A DNA stretch of 64,000 nt. It comes from Candidatus Vesicomyidisocius sp. Pext_18_S21. GTDB lineage: Bacteria > Pseudomonadota > Gammaproteobacteria > PS1 > Pseudothioglobaceae. A model generated the notes under the pieces. The model saw nothing but the letters and a program-made list of their open reading frames with translations, had not been told where the DNA came from and did no database searches. The DNA lies in the NCBI GenBank assembly GCA_021730165.1, contig CP072535.1:1-64000 (forward strand). Reading direction: 5' to 3'. How positions within the stretch are numbered: the stretch's first letter is position 1; each line of letters begins with the position of its first letter. Both the position numbers and the translations under genes were made by a program. Below are positions 21 through 58,481 of this stretch, in pieces.

Positions 21-1313
21 ATGTCTCAAACTTGGTCACAATGCCTAAATACTCTTAAAGATAGTATCCCCATTTCTCAATATAATATATGGATACAACC
101 ATTAAAAGCACTTGAAAATAAAAATACATTATCTTTATTAGCACCTAATTCACAGGTACTTAACTACATTAATAAAAATCTTAAACCACAAATAAAAAAT
201 GCAGTTACAAAACATAATAAAAATTTAAAAATTTATATCGGGATTGCATGCAATCCCGATATAAAACAACAAACAACACCTTTATTTGAAGACTATACAT
301 TTAACAATTTAGTACTAGGAAACTCCAATCAAATGGCATATAGCGCTACTAAACAAATTGCTGAAAATATAAAAACTTCACCGTACAATCCTTTTATTAT
401 TTATGGCAAATCAGGACTAGGTAAAACACACTTAATGCAAGCTGCTGGACACCTAGCAAAAGAAAAAAATCCAAATATTAAAATAATTTATGTACCTTTA
501 ATAGATTTTGTTAGAAACATTACCTCTAGCTTGAGACATAATTCCATTGAAAAAATTAAAAATTTTTACCAATCTACTGATTTATTATTAGTTGATGATA
601 TAAATTTAATTGCAGGTAAAGAAAAATCTCAAGAAGAATTCTTTCATATTTTTAATTCTTTATTTAGTGGTAAAAAACAAATTATATTTACATGCGACCA
701 ACCACCAAAAAATATTAAATTATTAGAAGATCGCTTAAAAACTAGATTTTCACAAGGTTTAAACTTACATCTAACCCCCCCAGGATTAGAAATGCGTGCT
801 GCTATTTTACTTAAAAAATCACAAAATAAAAAAATTAACATAAACTTAACAGAAGATACAGCATTATTTATTGCTAAACATATTGTCTCTAATATTAGAG
901 ACCTTGAAGGAGCTCTTCTTAAACTCAAAGCTTTTGTTGATTTTTCAAAAATCAACAAAAGCTTTATCTCTAAAGAAATAATTGAAACAGCTTTAGGAGA
1001 ACTAATAAAACCCCAAATAAAAAATATTGATATTAATGATATTCAAAAAGAAATAATAAAACATTACAACTTAACCATTTCTGATTTAAATTCAAAATCC
1101 AGAAAACAACATACGGTACTTGCTAGACAAATGGCAATGTTTATTTGCTATAAACTAACCTCCCTATCACTAACAAAAATTGGAAAACACTTTGGAAATA
1201 GAGATCATTCCACTGTCTTATACGCCATTAAAAAAATTAAAGAAAAACATCTAGAAAATATTAAAATAAAAAATGATTACGAATTAATAAATATAAAATT
1301 AACAAACTTATAA
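21..1313 (+). CDS. dnaA: Chromosomal replication initiator protein DnaA
   Basis: Binds DnaA boxes at oriC, melts the origin and loads the helicase. The 430-residue product has the family domains in order: N-terminal domain I (about 1-75), a very short domain II linker, an AAA+ ATPase with Walker A GKSGLGKT (129-136), Walker B LLLVDD (188-193) and arginine-rich sensor segment DRLKTRF (237-243), and the C-terminal DNA-binding domain with the signature GNRDHSTVLYA (392-402; family usually GGRDHTT). It is shorter than E. coli DnaA (467) mainly because the linker is reduced. The ATG start gives the expected N-terminus. It begins 20 bases into the window, so numbering probably starts at this gene. 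The coding sequence carries three perfect palindromes listed separately. Confidence 0.98.
   Translation: MSQTWSQCLNTLKDSIPISQYNIWIQPLKALENKNTLSLLAPNSQVLNYINKNLKPQIKNAVTKHNKNLKIYIGIACNPDIKQQTTPLFEDYTFNNLVLGNSNQMAYSATKQIAENIKTSPYNPFIIYGKSGLGKTHLMQAAGHLAKEKNPNIKIIYVPLIDFVRNITSSLRHNSIEKIKNFYQSTDLLLVDDINLIAGKEKSQEEFFHIFNSLFSGKKQIIFTCDQPPKNIKLLEDRLKTRFSQGLNLHLTPPGLEMRAAILLKKSQNKKININLTEDTALFIAKHIVSNIRDLEGALLKLKAFVDFSKINKSFISKEIIETALGELIKPQIKNIDINDIQKEIIKHYNLTISDLNSKSRKQHTVLARQMAMFICYKLTSLSLTKIGKHFGNRDHSTVLYAIKKIKEKHLENIKIKNDYELINIKLTNL
232..265. repeat. 34-bp perfect palindrome inside dnaA
   Basis: Every base of the left 17 (TTTATATCGGGATTGCA) pairs with the right 17 (TGCAATCCCGATATAAA) with no spacer. 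It encodes residues 71-82 at the domain I/II boundary, a poorly constrained part of DnaA. The core (ATCGGGATTGCATGCAATCCCGAT) is notably GC-rich for this genome. It could form a cruciform or mRNA hairpin, or be the scar of a template-switch mutation. Function unknown. Confidence 0.95.
885..902. repeat. 18-bp perfect palindrome inside dnaA
   Basis: GTCTCTAAT followed directly by ATTAGAGAC. It encodes VSNIRD (residues 289-294), a conserved part of the AAA+ lid (family SNxRELEG), so codon choice makes this palindrome rather than a free sequence. It lies 24 bp before the longer palindrome at 927-965. Confidence 0.9.
927..965. repeat. 39-bp palindrome (19-bp arms, 1-base centre) inside dnaA
   Basis: Left arm 927-945 (AAAGCTTTTGTTGATTTTT) is the exact reverse complement of 947-965, with a single C at 946. 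It encodes residues 303-315 (KAFVDFSKINKSF). The reading frame is intact across it. Confidence 0.95.
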
Positions 1314-1538: not shown

Positions 1539-2642
1539 ATGAACATACAACTTAGCGTTAAAGAACTATTAGAACCTTTACAAACTGTTATTAGTCTAAT
1601 AGAAAAAAGACAAACTCTACCTATCCTTGCACATGTTCTTATTCAAATTAAAAATAATTTATTAACTCTAACAACAACAGATATGGAAATTGAGATAAAA
1701 ACTTCTCAAACTATAGAAAATAAAGCAAAAATTTCTTTTACAGTATATGCAAAAGATCTAATTAATATTATTAATAAATTACCAGAAAATACAATAATTA
1801 AATTTATTATTAATAATTCTAAAATTTGTATTAAAGTTAATAAAAATTCATTTGAACTTAATACTTTTAAATATCAAGATTTTCCTTCATTACCAAAAAT
1901 AAAAAATAAAAAAATTATTACAATTAAAAGAAAAATTTTAAAAGATCTAATTGAAAAAACAAGTTTTTCAATGGGTAATCAAGATATTAGAGCATATTTA
2001 AATGGATTATATTTTGAAATTAATAAAACTAATATCATAGTTGTTGCTACTGATGGACATAGACTTTCTATTGGTAAAATAAAACAAGTTAATAACTCTT
2101 TTAACAAAAAAACTGTAATCTTACCAAGAAAATCAATAATTGAATTTAGTAAATTACTTAATAAAAATAATAATGAAAAAATTAACATTTATACATCAAA
2201 TAACTATTTTTATCTTATTACTAATAATACAACTATAATTAGTAAATTAATCAATAGTAAATTCCCTAATTACTTACCAGTAATTCCTACAGATTTTAAT
2301 AATACAATTATTATTAACAGGCTAAATTTTTTAAATTCACTTCAACAGGCTTCAATTTTTGTTGAAGAAAGGACTAAAGGTGTTAAATTAATATTTAAAA
2401 ATTCACAATTATATATTTTTTCAAATTCAGAAAGAGGACAAGCAAAAACACAAATTAAAACTAAAAATTTTAATAAAAAAGTTAAAATTGCATTTAACAT
2501 TAATTATTTAATCTCAATTTTAGAAAAATTAAATACCGACGAAATTAACATGATAATTCCCAGCGGGGAAAATAAATCATGTTTACTGAATAGTATGAAT
2601 GATGATATTTATCAATATATTGTTATGCCTATGCGAATCTAG
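1539..2642 (+). CDS. dnaN: DNA polymerase III beta subunit (sliding clamp)
   Basis: Ring-shaped processivity clamp for DNA polymerase III. The 367-residue product matches the family length (E. coli 366), begins MNIQLSVKELLEPLQ and ends with the clamp C-terminal motif YIVMPMRI. The family motif ATDGHRLS is present near residue 172 (VVATDGHRLS). Composition is extremely rich in Asn, Lys and Ile, reflecting AT pressure. It follows dnaA across the putative origin region. The usual next gene, recF, is absent; gyrB follows after about 100 bp. The stop codon is embedded in a 32-bp palindrome. Confidence 0.97.
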   Translation: MNIQLSVKELLEPLQTVISLIEKRQTLPILAHVLIQIKNNLLTLTTTDMEIEIKTSQTIENKAKISFTVYAKDLINIINKLPENTIIKFIINNSKICIKVNKNSFELNTFKYQDFPSLPKIKNKKIITIKRKILKDLIEKTSFSMGNQDIRAYLNGLYFEINKTNIIVVATDGHRLSIGKIKQVNNSFNKKTVILPRKSIIEFSKLLNKNNNEKINIYTSNNYFYLITNNTTIISKLINSKFPNYLPVIPTDFNNTIIINRLNFLNSLQQASIFVEERTKGVKLIFKNSQLYIFSNSERGQAKTQIKTKNFNKKVKIAFNINYLISILEKLNTDEINMIIPSGENKSCLLNSMNDDIYQYIVMPMRI

Positions 2643-2670
2643 TATTCTTTTAAATTTAAAAGAATACTAG
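2639..2670. terminator. 32-bp perfect palindrome over the dnaN stop codon
   Basis: CTAGTATTCTTTTAAA followed directly by TTTAAAAGAATACTAG. The left arm contains the dnaN stop TAG (2640-2642). It could end dnaN transcription or stabilise the 3' end, but there is no downstream T-tract (ATATTACTTA follows), so it is not a textbook intrinsic terminator. Confidence 0.6.
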
Positions 2671-2699
2671 ATATTACTTAAAAAATATAAAAAACATGA

Positions 2700-34760: not shown

Positions 34761-34790
34761 AATTTTCAATACACTTGTGTATTGAAAATT
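34761..34790. promoter_or_regulatory. 30-bp inverted repeat upstream of coxB
   Basis: AATTTTCAATACAC (34761-34774) and GTGTATTGAAAATT (34777-34790) are perfect 14-bp arms around TT. It lies 29 bp before the coxB ATG and 140 bp from the divergent DUF2189 gene. Could be an operator for a dimeric regulator or a 5' leader hairpin; the ribosome-binding AGGGGAG follows near 34807. No family of regulator recognised. Confidence 0.55.
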
Positions 34791-44007: not shown

Positions 44008-44569
44008 CAAATCCTATTTTAAGATTTAGTTCAAAAGCATTTGATTCAATAATTGGGTTGATAATTATTGAATCAAATGTTAGTAAAATTGTTTGATTTA
44101 GTTTATTATTAAGACTAATAGCTTTCAGCATGTTATTTTTTAGGCCAAAACTTAATTGGTTAGTTTGTTGAGTTTTATACCAATTAATTTTATCTTTTGT
44201 GTGTGTATATTGGGGTATATGATTGTTATCGATAGGTCGATTAATAAACCAATATAATGGAGTTTGTGTTAAGTTAGTTGTTGATATCAAACTAGCTTGT
44301 TTTAATTCAACATCAACTAGCCACAGTTTAGTATTATTTAACAGTAGTATTTGCTCGTTTGGCACTAGCGTATGCCAAATTAGTTGTTTCGGACGTTTAA
44401 ATAATAATGTGCCAGAAGATTTAGTTAATAGCGTACCTGTGTTGTTATAGGTATGTTGTGTAAAGTTAGCACTTAGACGTTCAAATGAGCTAAAAAAATT
44501 AGAGAAATCATAGTTGCTATTGGCAAAACTAGAAAATACAAGTATTAAAGTGCTTATAAATTTAGTCAT
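43997..44569 (-). CDS. lolA: Outer-membrane lipoprotein carrier protein LolA
   Basis: Periplasmic carrier that moves lipoproteins from LolCDE to LolB. The 190-residue product has a signal peptide (MTKFISTLILVFSSFANS), then LSANFTQHTYNNTGTLLTKSSGTLLFKRPKQLIW, typical of LolA (Q-x-x-G-x-L-x-x-x-RP). Length fits (about 200). It overlaps the ftsK 3' end by 8 nt, the conserved ftsK-lolA order. A strong hairpin lies inside its last 70 bp. Confidence 0.9.
   Translation of the reverse strand: MTKFISTLILVFSSFANSNYDFSNFFSSFERLSANFTQHTYNNTGTLLTKSSGTLLFKRPKQLIWHTLVPNEQILLLNNTKLWLVDVELKQASLISTTNLTQTPLYWFINRPIDNNHIPQYTHTKDKINWYKTQQTNQLSFGLKNNMLKAISLNNKLNQTILLTFDSIIINPIIESNAFELNLKIGFDIE
44038..44079. repeat. 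Inverted repeat with 17-bp arms inside lolA
   Basis: CATTTGATTCAATAATT (44038-44054) and AATTATTGAATCAAATG (44063-44079) are perfect complements around GGGTTGAT. Wholly within the 3' coding part of lolA, encoding roughly TFDSIIINPIIESN, without breaking the frame. Could act as a transcript-end hairpin or be a mutational scar. Confidence 0.9.
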
Positions 44570-51730: not shown

Positions 51731-52430
51731 AATATAACTCTTTATCATGGTGGTGTATTTACACTAAAACTTATCAGTATTTTTTTATGATTGATTAATA
51801 TAAAAATATATTTAGTCATATGCCATTTATAGAAGCGTTAAGGTTTAGAGCTTTAGTCGATTTAGTTAGTTATTTTTATTGAATATTAGTATTCATATTG
51901 TTATGATATTTATAACACCAGATTACATTGCATGATTCTATGGAATCTATTAGACATTGGTTAAATAATTTTAATCAAAAAATTTTTAATGAATATTTAA
52001 CATGGTTAAACTCTGGATTAGACAAGGTAAAAGAATTACAGATAATAGTTGATAATGCTAAAAAATTATAGAAACTTGGTAAGTAAATAGCTATCATCTT
52101 ATAAATAAGATTGTATTATCAATACAATTATGTAGTATATTATGCATATTCTATCAAAGTTTTATGCTATAAATAAAATATTTAATTAAGTTGATGGTTA
52201 AGACCTGAAAAATAGGATATTTACCTAAAATAAAAGAAATTGTATAACCTACCTAATTTAGTTGATGGGGTAAGTAAAAGTATTGCTATGTATGTGTACA
52301 TCATGCATTTGATGTGCTTGTATGTGGATAAATATCTGATTTAAGGAGTTGGAAGGATAAGTTGATTGTCTAAAATTTTTAGGTTAAAGATTAAAATTAT
52401 TGAAAAATTGAAATATCTAAGAGATCTGTA
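51731..52430. other. Large intergenic gap apbE-crcB (700 bp)
   Basis: No recognisable gene. A 43-codon frame (51940-52071) encodes MESIRHWLNNFNQKIFNEYL and a further lysine/leucine-rich stretch; no family match comes to mind and no ribosome-binding site is apparent, so it may be a relic. Two overlapping 7-bp-arm hairpins lie at 52096-52111 and 52110-52128. The size suggests a lost gene. Confidence 0.45.
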
Positions 52431-56033: not shown

Positions 56034-58481
56034 ATGGCACACACGGTTCAAACACTCTCTAAATTATTGAAAAAGACGCCTGATGAGGTAGTTACAATTC
56101 TAGCGAATGCTGGTGTTGATGGTAAAAATTCAGACTCTGTTATTTCAGCAGAAGAAAGAAAAATATTAATGAGTAGTCTTTCAAAGCGTCCAATTAGAAG
56201 ATCTAGCATATCTGTGTTTCGTAAAGCAGGTACTAAGCCTAATACCGTTTCAGTGAGTGATGTTAAAGTAAAAGTTAGATCAAAACGCTTGACACAGCCA
56301 ATTACAATGATTGATGAACAGTCTAAAATTGTTGCTAACGAAATGGCTAGAGCTGCTCTAGTTGCCTTGGATGCTGGTCGTAATGCAGATGAGATATTAT
56401 CGGCCCAAGATGCTAGACGTTTGGAAATGGTGCGTTTGCAAAAAGCTCAAGTAGAAGTGTTAGAGATCCAGAAAGAAACTATTAAAAAAGTGCAAGAAAA
56501 GGAAGCTGAAAAGAAAGTTGAAAAACTAAAAACGGTAGACAATCCTAAAGAAGGTAATAAACCTAAACGCTTACGTAATACTTCTAGTAATAATAATACT
56601 CGTAAGCAACTTCATGTCGCTAGACATAATCCCAATCGAAAATTAAAGAAAAAAGATAGAACACATTTGTCACAAAAAATACAAGCAGAACAAGCGCAAC
56701 ATGCTTTCCAAAAACCTGTTGAAAAAGTAATTCATGAAGTTTCTATTACTGGGAATATCAAGGTAACTGAACTTGCACAAAAGATGACTACTAAAGCTGG
56801 TGAAGTGCTTAAAGTGTTAATGAGTATGGGTGTTATGGTGACGTTGAATGATGTAATTGACCAAGATACTGCTATGTTAGTTGTAGAAGAAATGGGCCAT
56901 AAAGGTATTATTAGTGTTGAAGAAACCATTGAAGATGTATTATTTGAACAGTTAAAATCTAACGAGCATGAAAGTGCTAGACCGCCTATTGTAACTATTA
57001 TGGGTCATGTTGATCATGGTAAGACCTCACTTCTAGATTATATTCGTCAAACAAAAGTAGCACATGGTGAAGTTGGCGGGATTACACAACATATTGGCGC
57101 TTATCAAGTTCAGTCAAATGGTAATATTATTACTTTTATTGACACACCAGGACACGCGGCATTTTCAAAAATGCGTTTTCGGGGTGCTAATGTGACCGAT
57201 ATTGTTATTTTAGTGGTAGCTGCTGATGATGGTGTGATGCCACAGACGATCGAGTCTATCAAACATACACAAATTGTTGGCGTGCCTATGATTGTTGCAA
57301 TTAATAAGATAGATAAAGAAGGAACGGATGTTGATAAAATTAAGCAAGTTCTTTCAACATATGATGTGATCTCTGAAGATTGGGGTGGTGATGTGATAAT
57401 GGTTCCTGTATCAGCTCATACTGGTGAAGGTGTGGATGCTTTATTAGATGCTATTTCACTCACTGCCGAGATTTTAGAATTCTCGGCAGTGAGTGAAGGT
57501 CCAGCACATGGTACTGTACTAGAAGCACGTCTTGAAAAAGGCCGTGGTAAGGTGACTACTATTTTAGTGCAATCAGGTACATTGAATAAAGGAGATATTA
57601 TGATTGCTGGATTCGAATATGGCAAAGTTAAACAAATTGTGGATGATAAAGGTAAAATACTTAAATTAGCTATGCCATCAATGCCTGTAGAGGTGTTAGG
57701 TTTGTCTGGTGTGCCTAACTCCGGTGATGAAGTAATAGTTGTAGATAGTGAGAGAAAGGCTCGTGAGGTGGCTGATTTCAGAAAATCTAAAGACCGTGAA
57801 GTGCAGTTGCAGAAACAGCAAGCATCGAAAATGGAAAATTTTCTAATGAAAATGGAAAAAGGTGATATTTCAACCGTTAATGTATTGCTTAAAGCGGATG
57901 TTAGAGGTTCAGCGCAAGCATTAATTGAAGCCTTAGAAGAATTATCAACGGATGAGGTTAGAGTAAAAGTGGTGTCAAGCGGTGTTGGCGGTATTAATAA
58001 TACTGATATTACATTAGCAGCAACTTCTAGTGCTTTAGTACTTGGTTTTAATGTACGTGCTGATGCTGTTGCACGTAAAACAGCTGACAATGAAGGTGTT
58101 CGTGTTGAATATTACTCAATTATCTATAACTTAATTAATGATGTTAAAGCTATTATGAGTGGTTTACTCAGCCCAGAATTAAGTGAAAATATTATTGGTA
58201 TTGCTTCTGTTAAAAATATATTTAAATCTCAAAAAATGGGTGATATTGCTGGGTGTATGGTGGATGAAGGTATGGTTAAACGTGATAGCCTAATTCGAGT
58301 ATTACGTGATAGTGTAGTTATCTTTGATGGTAAACTGGAATCATTAAGACGTTTTAAAGATGATGTTAATGAAGTTAAGTCAGGTACTGAATGTGGTATT
58401 GGTGTACTTAATTATACAGATGTTCAGCCAGGTGATCAAATAGAAATCTTTGAACGTGTTGAAAGGGCACGTATACTTTAG
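56034..58481 (+). CDS. infB: Translation initiation factor IF-2
   Basis: GTPase that brings initiator tRNA to the 30S subunit. The 815-residue product has an N-terminal IF2_N segment, a lysine/glutamate-rich linker (about 130-235), G1 GHVDHGKT (about 325-332), [13 protein letters not shown], and C-terminal domains ending [16 protein letters not shown]. Somewhat shorter than E. coli IF2-alpha (890) through the linker. AGGCAAG precedes the ATG. A 17-bp-arm inverted repeat lies within domain G/II. Confidence 0.97.
57455..57497. repeat. Inverted repeat with 17-bp arms inside infB
   Basis: TTCACTCACTGCCGAGA (57455-57471) and TCTCGGCAGTGAGTGAA (57481-57497) are perfect complements around TTTTAGAAT. 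It encodes about residues 475-488 ([15 protein letters not shown]) at the end of the G domain, where E. coli IF2 has LLLQAEVLELKAV, so the protein is conserved around it. Strong predicted mRNA hairpin; GC-rich for this genome. Confidence 0.95.

Follow-up and report, generated by a model that had tools for sequence, protein, structure and literature searches.

Two palindromes within dnaA

The window analysed here is the whole stretch from position 1 to 64,000 of contig CP072535.1, and the genome from which it derives, denoted G000, consists of one contig of 1,023,779 bp. The dnaA gene occupies positions 21-1313 of the forward strand as an open reading frame of 430 amino acids, which runs intact across two palindromes. 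The first of these (site 1, 232-265, forward strand) had been described in the first-pass annotation as a perfect palindrome of 34 bp within dnaA, and it is indeed composed of an arm at 232-248 followed, with zero spacer, by its exact reverse complement at 249-265. It covers codons 71-82 and falls between the two Pfam domain matches of the protein, DnaA_N at residues 3-63 and the ATPase beginning at residue 90. Its core, CGGGATTGCATGCAATCCCG, is GC-rich within a window of 31% GC. The supposition that such a palindrome hardly arises by chance is borne out: from the base composition of the window, 3.6e-5 spacerless palindromes with arms of at least 17 bp are expected per 64 kb, or 4e-4 if loops of 0-10 nt are admitted. 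A first-order Markov model of the window, run 40 times, yielded no hairpin with arms of at least 15 bp, whereas the real window contains five with arms of at least 17 bp.

The second palindrome (site 2, 927-965, forward strand), absent from the first-pass annotation, harbors two perfect 19-bp arms at 927-945 and 947-965, separated by a single-nucleotide loop at 946.

Imperfect precursors in related genomes

The nearest relatives of G000 are G001 (1,022,154 bp), G005 and G008, and the four genomes share about 95% identity across the genes examined. From their kinship and gene losses they appear to correspond to clade I of the vesicomyid clam symbionts, a term taken from PMC3202245 and PMC5310779; they are referred to below as the clade, with G002 and G003 as outgroups. 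Codon alignment of 39 distinct dnaA genes shows the palindrome at site 1 in none of the 11 further genomes of the genus, and site 2 is not perfect in any of them. Both are present in relatives as imperfect inverted repeats. At site 1, 13 of the 17 pairs are formed in G001, 12 in G005, 14 in G008 and 8 in G003, while at site 2 the corresponding numbers out of 19 are 15, 16, 14 and 12, with 13 in G002.

Superposition of the G000 sequence on that of G001 depicts five changes at site 1, two in the left arm (235 T->A, 242 T->G) and three in the right arm (257 A->C, 258 A->G, 262 C->T). The G000 base at 242 is the complement of the ancestral right arm and those at 257 and 258 are complements of the ancestral left arm, the polarity at 257 being uncertain because C is also found there in G008. 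The pair 235/262 is altered on both sides in G000. A replacement of the protein segment, which the first-pass annotation had considered, did not take place: the DnaA length equals that of the clade relatives and only three residues differ from G001 in this stretch (F72Y, N80D and T81I), with tyrosine commonly found at position 72 in other relatives. At site 2 the codons AAC AAA of G000 stand in place of AAT CAT in G001 and G005. All three private changes lie inside four bases of the right arm and complement the unchanged left arm; their effect on the protein is H313K, at a residue which is variable among the relatives.

Further palindromes and the origin region

Besides those in dnaA, the window contains three perfect hairpins with arms of 17 or 18 bp. 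A palindrome of 36 bp (2637-2672, forward strand) spans the dnaN stop codon and the dnaN-gyrB gap, where the related genomes differ by substitutions as well as by indels. Different perfect palindromes are observed at the same place in the dnaN-gyrB gap of G002 and G010. The second, within lolA (44038-44079, reverse strand), has 17-bp arms and an 8-nt loop; 16 of its 17 pairs are formed in G001 and 9 in both G003 and G002. The third, within infB (57455-57497, forward strand), has 17-bp arms and a 9-nt loop; it is of older date and perfect in all four clade genomes, with 10 of 17 pairs formed in G003 and 12 in G002. At two of its pairs both bases vary within the clade, all four changes being synonymous; such paired changes could stem either from repeated arm-to-arm copying or from selection. 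A further hairpin at 34761-34790, outside the open frames, has 13 or 14 of its 14 pairs formed in the four clade genomes and is terminator-like by look.

Private hairpins are also found in sister genomes. The dnaN gene of G005, which encodes the sliding clamp, contains one with 20-bp arms (L007:1769-1811), in which the spacer is inverted from TTCTAAAA to TTTTAGAA and several clamp residues are altered. Spacer inversion is regarded as a hallmark of template switching (PMC8604942). In G008 a private near-palindrome of 87 bp, with 43-bp arms and a 1-nt loop, is located at 127556-127642 of a joined stretch (L130), outside open frames of 120 amino acids; the complement of the right arm seems to have been written over the left one.

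At distances of up to about 2.7 kb from the dnaA start, the 12 genomes of the genus together contain six hairpin sites with arms of at least 15 bp, compared with 0.58 expected. Three of the six belong to G000, and upon its removal 3 remain against 0.53 expected (p 0.017). In G000 itself, three of the nine such sites found in 404 kb fall within positions 1-2750, surrounding a DnaA-box-like site at 1379. As the region was chosen post hoc, these numbers give a hint of an origin-proximal hot spot.

Arm-completing substitution clusters in the clade

For a test across the clade, about 400 kb each were sampled from G000, G001, G005, G008, G003 and G002. From 324 open frames of G000 with at least 120 amino acids, 320 alignments of three or more genomes were obtained; G008 contributes to only 139 of them, since part of its sample is rearranged or comes from elsewhere. 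Private substitutions were polarised where two or more further clade genomes agreed. Clusters were defined as at least two substitutions with gaps of at most 8 and a span of at most 40, and each was examined for derived bases inside a perfect inverted-repeat arm with a loop of at most 30. In the time-reversed control the derived and ancestral states were swapped.

Arms of at least 10 bp are completed by 18 of the 3,073 clusters, compared with 0 in the time-reversed control, and by 15 versus 0 if dnaA is left out (p 6e-5). The ratio of observed to reversed clusters is 10 to 0 for arms of at least 12 bp, 26 to 2 for at least 9 bp and 54 to 14 for at least 8 bp. Private hairpins with arms of at least 15 bp and at least two changed pairs were gained six times and never lost, two of these six gains being the dnaA sites which had themselves prompted the test. 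At lower thresholds 18 gains stand against 4 losses (arms of at least 12 bp) and 49 against 32 (at least 10 bp).

The clade and the outgroups appear to differ in this respect. In genes shared with both outgroups, arms of at least 10 bp are completed by 12 of 1,437 clusters in the clade (G000 4/370, G001 2/312, G005 4/420, G008 2/335) versus 2 of 2,658 in the outgroups (G002 2/1,399, G003 0/1,259), and all reversed controls are 0. Fisher's test gives p 1.4e-4; the value becomes 0.002 when the three dnaA clusters are excluded and 0.005 per private substitution. The comparison is open to bias from the higher AT content of the clade and from the greater length of the outgroup branches. An enrichment of particular base changes in the templated clusters is not clear, with 13 AT->GC and 16 GC->AT changes and p 0.051 for transitions versus transversions. 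Nor is any arm bias found among them, the changed arm being the left one in 9 and the right one in 9, where the fork direction is itself inferred.

Probable quasipalindrome correction by template switching

Judged from these comparisons, both dnaA palindromes are very probably mutation scars of quasipalindrome correction by template switching. A template-switch scar had been among the origins suggested in the first-pass annotation, and it is this one that gains support: an imperfect inverted repeat is present at the locus in relatives, most of the private bases complement the opposite arm, and the tests across the gene set agree. According to this mechanism a quasipalindrome would have been present beforehand at each site. 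During replication the growing strand would pair with the other arm or with itself, extend on the wrong template and then return, whereby mismatched bases would be replaced by complements of the opposite arm. For site 2 one copying event from left to right, with the left arm as template, would suffice. For site 1 at least two events in opposite directions and one ordinary C->T substitution at 262 would be required; in the simplest history 257-258 would be copied from the left arm, followed by C->T at 262 and by copying of 235-242 from the right arm. Long hairpins are cleaved by SbcCD. The palindromes may persist owing to their small protein cost, which would render them nearly neutral, and to the fact that SbcCD is undetected in this genome.

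Several observations count against this mechanism. A single event fails to account for site 1, where the changes are bidirectional, one pair is altered on both sides and the polarity at 257 is uncertain. The asymmetry between gain and loss is smaller at the weaker thresholds, that is for clusters with arms of at least 8 bp and for hairpins with arms of at least 10 bp. Finally, the leading-strand bias of the Escherichia coli reporters has no counterpart in an arm bias here.

The nearest alternative is hairpin mismatch correction, in which stem mismatches of a folded strand are repaired by copying either arm. At site 1 such correction in mixed directions could give the same outcome, as the mixed direction of the changes there would suggest, and the overall lack of an arm bias is likewise in line with it. 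On the other hand, MutS is matched in none of the 12 genomes of the genus, and with uvrB and uvrC broken in the clade few known repair routes are left. Furthermore, the spacer inversion in G005 dnaN is expected of template switching and not of stem repair. Hairpin mismatch correction is considered unlikely as the source of the palindromes.

A selected dnaA mRNA hairpin or cruciform which regulates expression or replication initiation is highly improbable. The folds in G000 are very stable, with -20.3 kcal/mol (z -8.0) for RNA and -14.1 kcal/mol for DNA at site 1, and -20.0 kcal/mol (z -8.4) and -17.4 kcal/mol, respectively, at site 2; going by the single-strand DNA value, a cruciform at site 1 would be thermodynamically possible. 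However, the palindrome is missing from each of the 11 other genomes of the genus, and in both relatives that were folded the site 1 RNA fold drops to -3.0 kcal/mol (z 0.0 and -0.2). The strong fold at site 1 is hence confined to G000, so that the self-regulatory hairpin proposed in the first-pass annotation, as a conserved element, finds no support. Covariation, which would have spoken for selected structure, does not exceed that of shuffled alignments: among five sequences two pairs of site 1 are changed on both sides, a number reached by 251 of 500 shuffles. Moreover, site 1 sits in the coding region, about 210 nt past the start codon, and Rfam gave no match at either dnaA palindrome, its only matches in the window being three tRNAs. 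At site 2 the RNA folds of two relatives amount to -7.7 and -11.6 kcal/mol (z -2.0 and -4.2); this stem is therefore partly older, and a weak older role is possible there.

Independent point substitutions completing the palindromes by chance are barely credible, for although imperfect inverted repeats are common owing to an AT-rich and fast-evolving genome and the controls are non-empty at weak thresholds, the 18 to 0 and 10 to 0 ratios over the time-reversed control (arms of at least 10 and 12 bp) contradict such an origin in aggregate. Palindromes are notorious trouble spots for sequencing. A sequencing or assembly artefact (fold-back chimera) or the insertion of a mobile palindromic element, as known from Rickettsia (mentioned in PMC6649704), is equally hard to credit, given that the dnaA frame and length match those of the clade relatives, that each palindrome is matched at its own locus only, with no further copies, when the complete genome is searched with bases 1-1,500, and that private events of the same class occur in sister genomes.

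Comparison with known systems

Quasipalindrome correction in bacterial genomes, the same process, is reportedly the subject of van Noort et al. (2003), as their title has it. In E. coli, template-switch mutation associated with quasipalindromes has been described (PMC7202029, PMC6357072), and there as in the present dnaA gene imperfect inverted repeats are turned perfect by one arm copying the other. The E. coli data derive from reporters in a repair-proficient laboratory species and display a leading-strand bias, whereas the changes described here have become fixed in genes essential to an obligate symbiont, and the clusters are evenly split between the arms (9 and 9). Homogenisation of arms, inversion of the spacer and clustered amino-acid changes are shared with Saccharomyces cerevisiae coding DNA (PMC8604942), although the latter is a eukaryote compared at strain level while here bacteria are compared at species level, between clades differing in repair genes.

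Perfect inverted repeats in functional genes, gained and lost among species, are also known from Nematomorpha mitochondria (PMC6649704). These palindromes are perhaps kept by repeat conversion, which matches the idea of arm-to-arm copying in infB; in contrast to the few palindromes of 34-43 bp in G000, whose imperfect precursors are visible in relatives, they are numerous and up to 284 bp long. The creation and maintenance of RNA hairpins by template switching (PMC8794818) shares with infB the compensated pairs as a possible mutational product, yet it concerns structural RNA genes and not, as here, protein-coding DNA without a known RNA role.

The mechanism as such is therefore already known; as far as a limited search of the literature goes, what is new are the specific case, the apparent clade-wide excess and the suggested maintenance of palindromes. 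Among the titles and abstract openings listed in that search of the open literature, none deals with template switching or palindromes in vesicomyid symbionts, and 'palindrom' does not occur in the accessible text of two papers on repair in these symbionts (PMC3202245, PMC5310779).

Repair genes and the apparent excess in the clade

SbcD was found above the cut-off in one of 24 genomes (G019), which is not G000. The weak and short matches elsewhere presumably represent other phosphoesterases. ExoI is present in all 24 genomes, and the large subunit of ExoVII is matched in 23, being in pieces in G009 and missing in G008. Within the genus, RecJ matches were obtained for all 12 genomes, and RecG likewise, the latter above the cut-off in seven; in G003 and throughout the clade it scores lower than that.

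RecA was detected in 19 of the 24 genomes; the five in which it was not are G003 and the four of the clade. Its loss is rejected as a sufficient cause of the excess, since G003 also lacks RecA yet has 0 templated clusters among 1,259. RecB-like matches occur in all 12 genomes of the genus, none above the cut-off, and the loss of RecBCD therefore fails to separate the clades and is likewise rejected as a clade-specific cause. A spacerless perfect palindrome of 44 bp lies inside an open frame of G031, a RecA-positive relative outside the clade (52176-52219, L188); coding palindromes are thus not restricted to the clade.

The picture differs for nucleotide excision repair. UvrB is present as fragments with stops in G000, G005 and G008 and as weak matches inside other long frames in G001, while it is whole in the other eight genomes of the genus. 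UvrC is whole in seven of them, broken in G009 and left only as fragments in the four clade genomes. In G000 the uvrB and uvrC remnants, with many stops, are located at G000:C1:407057-408786 and G000:C1:579336-580049. These losses agree with those reported in PMC5310779. Among the genes tested, uvrB and uvrC are the ones that every clade genome has lost and that both outgroups retain whole, which makes their breakage a candidate correlate of the excess. Crosslinks between DNA and protein promote template switching in E. coli, and the raised constitutive template-switch rate of recB mutants is absent in recA mutants (PMC6357072). By analogy with these data it is a reasonable guess that the loss of excision repair raises the template-switch rate.

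A wider reading may be offered tentatively, as one that is possible and rather doubtful: the clade would have acquired a raised rate of template-switch mutation, linked with its loss of both UvrB and UvrC against a background in which SbcCD and MutS were already undetectable, lesions left unrepaired would stall replication forks, and coding palindromes, as in infB, would be kept perfect by repeated arm-to-arm copying and not by selection, with a concentration near the replication origin. By comparing clades one can test which lost repair function allows template switching to leave permanent traces.

When substitutions cluster in the decaying genes of symbionts, they are readily taken for independent changes or for relaxed or positive selection. 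Several of the clusters described here look like single templated events, including those in the replication initiator and in the sliding clamp of a sister genome. In infB, paired, synonymous and compensated changes may come from mutation alone, which calls for caution wherever covariation is taken as proof of an RNA function.
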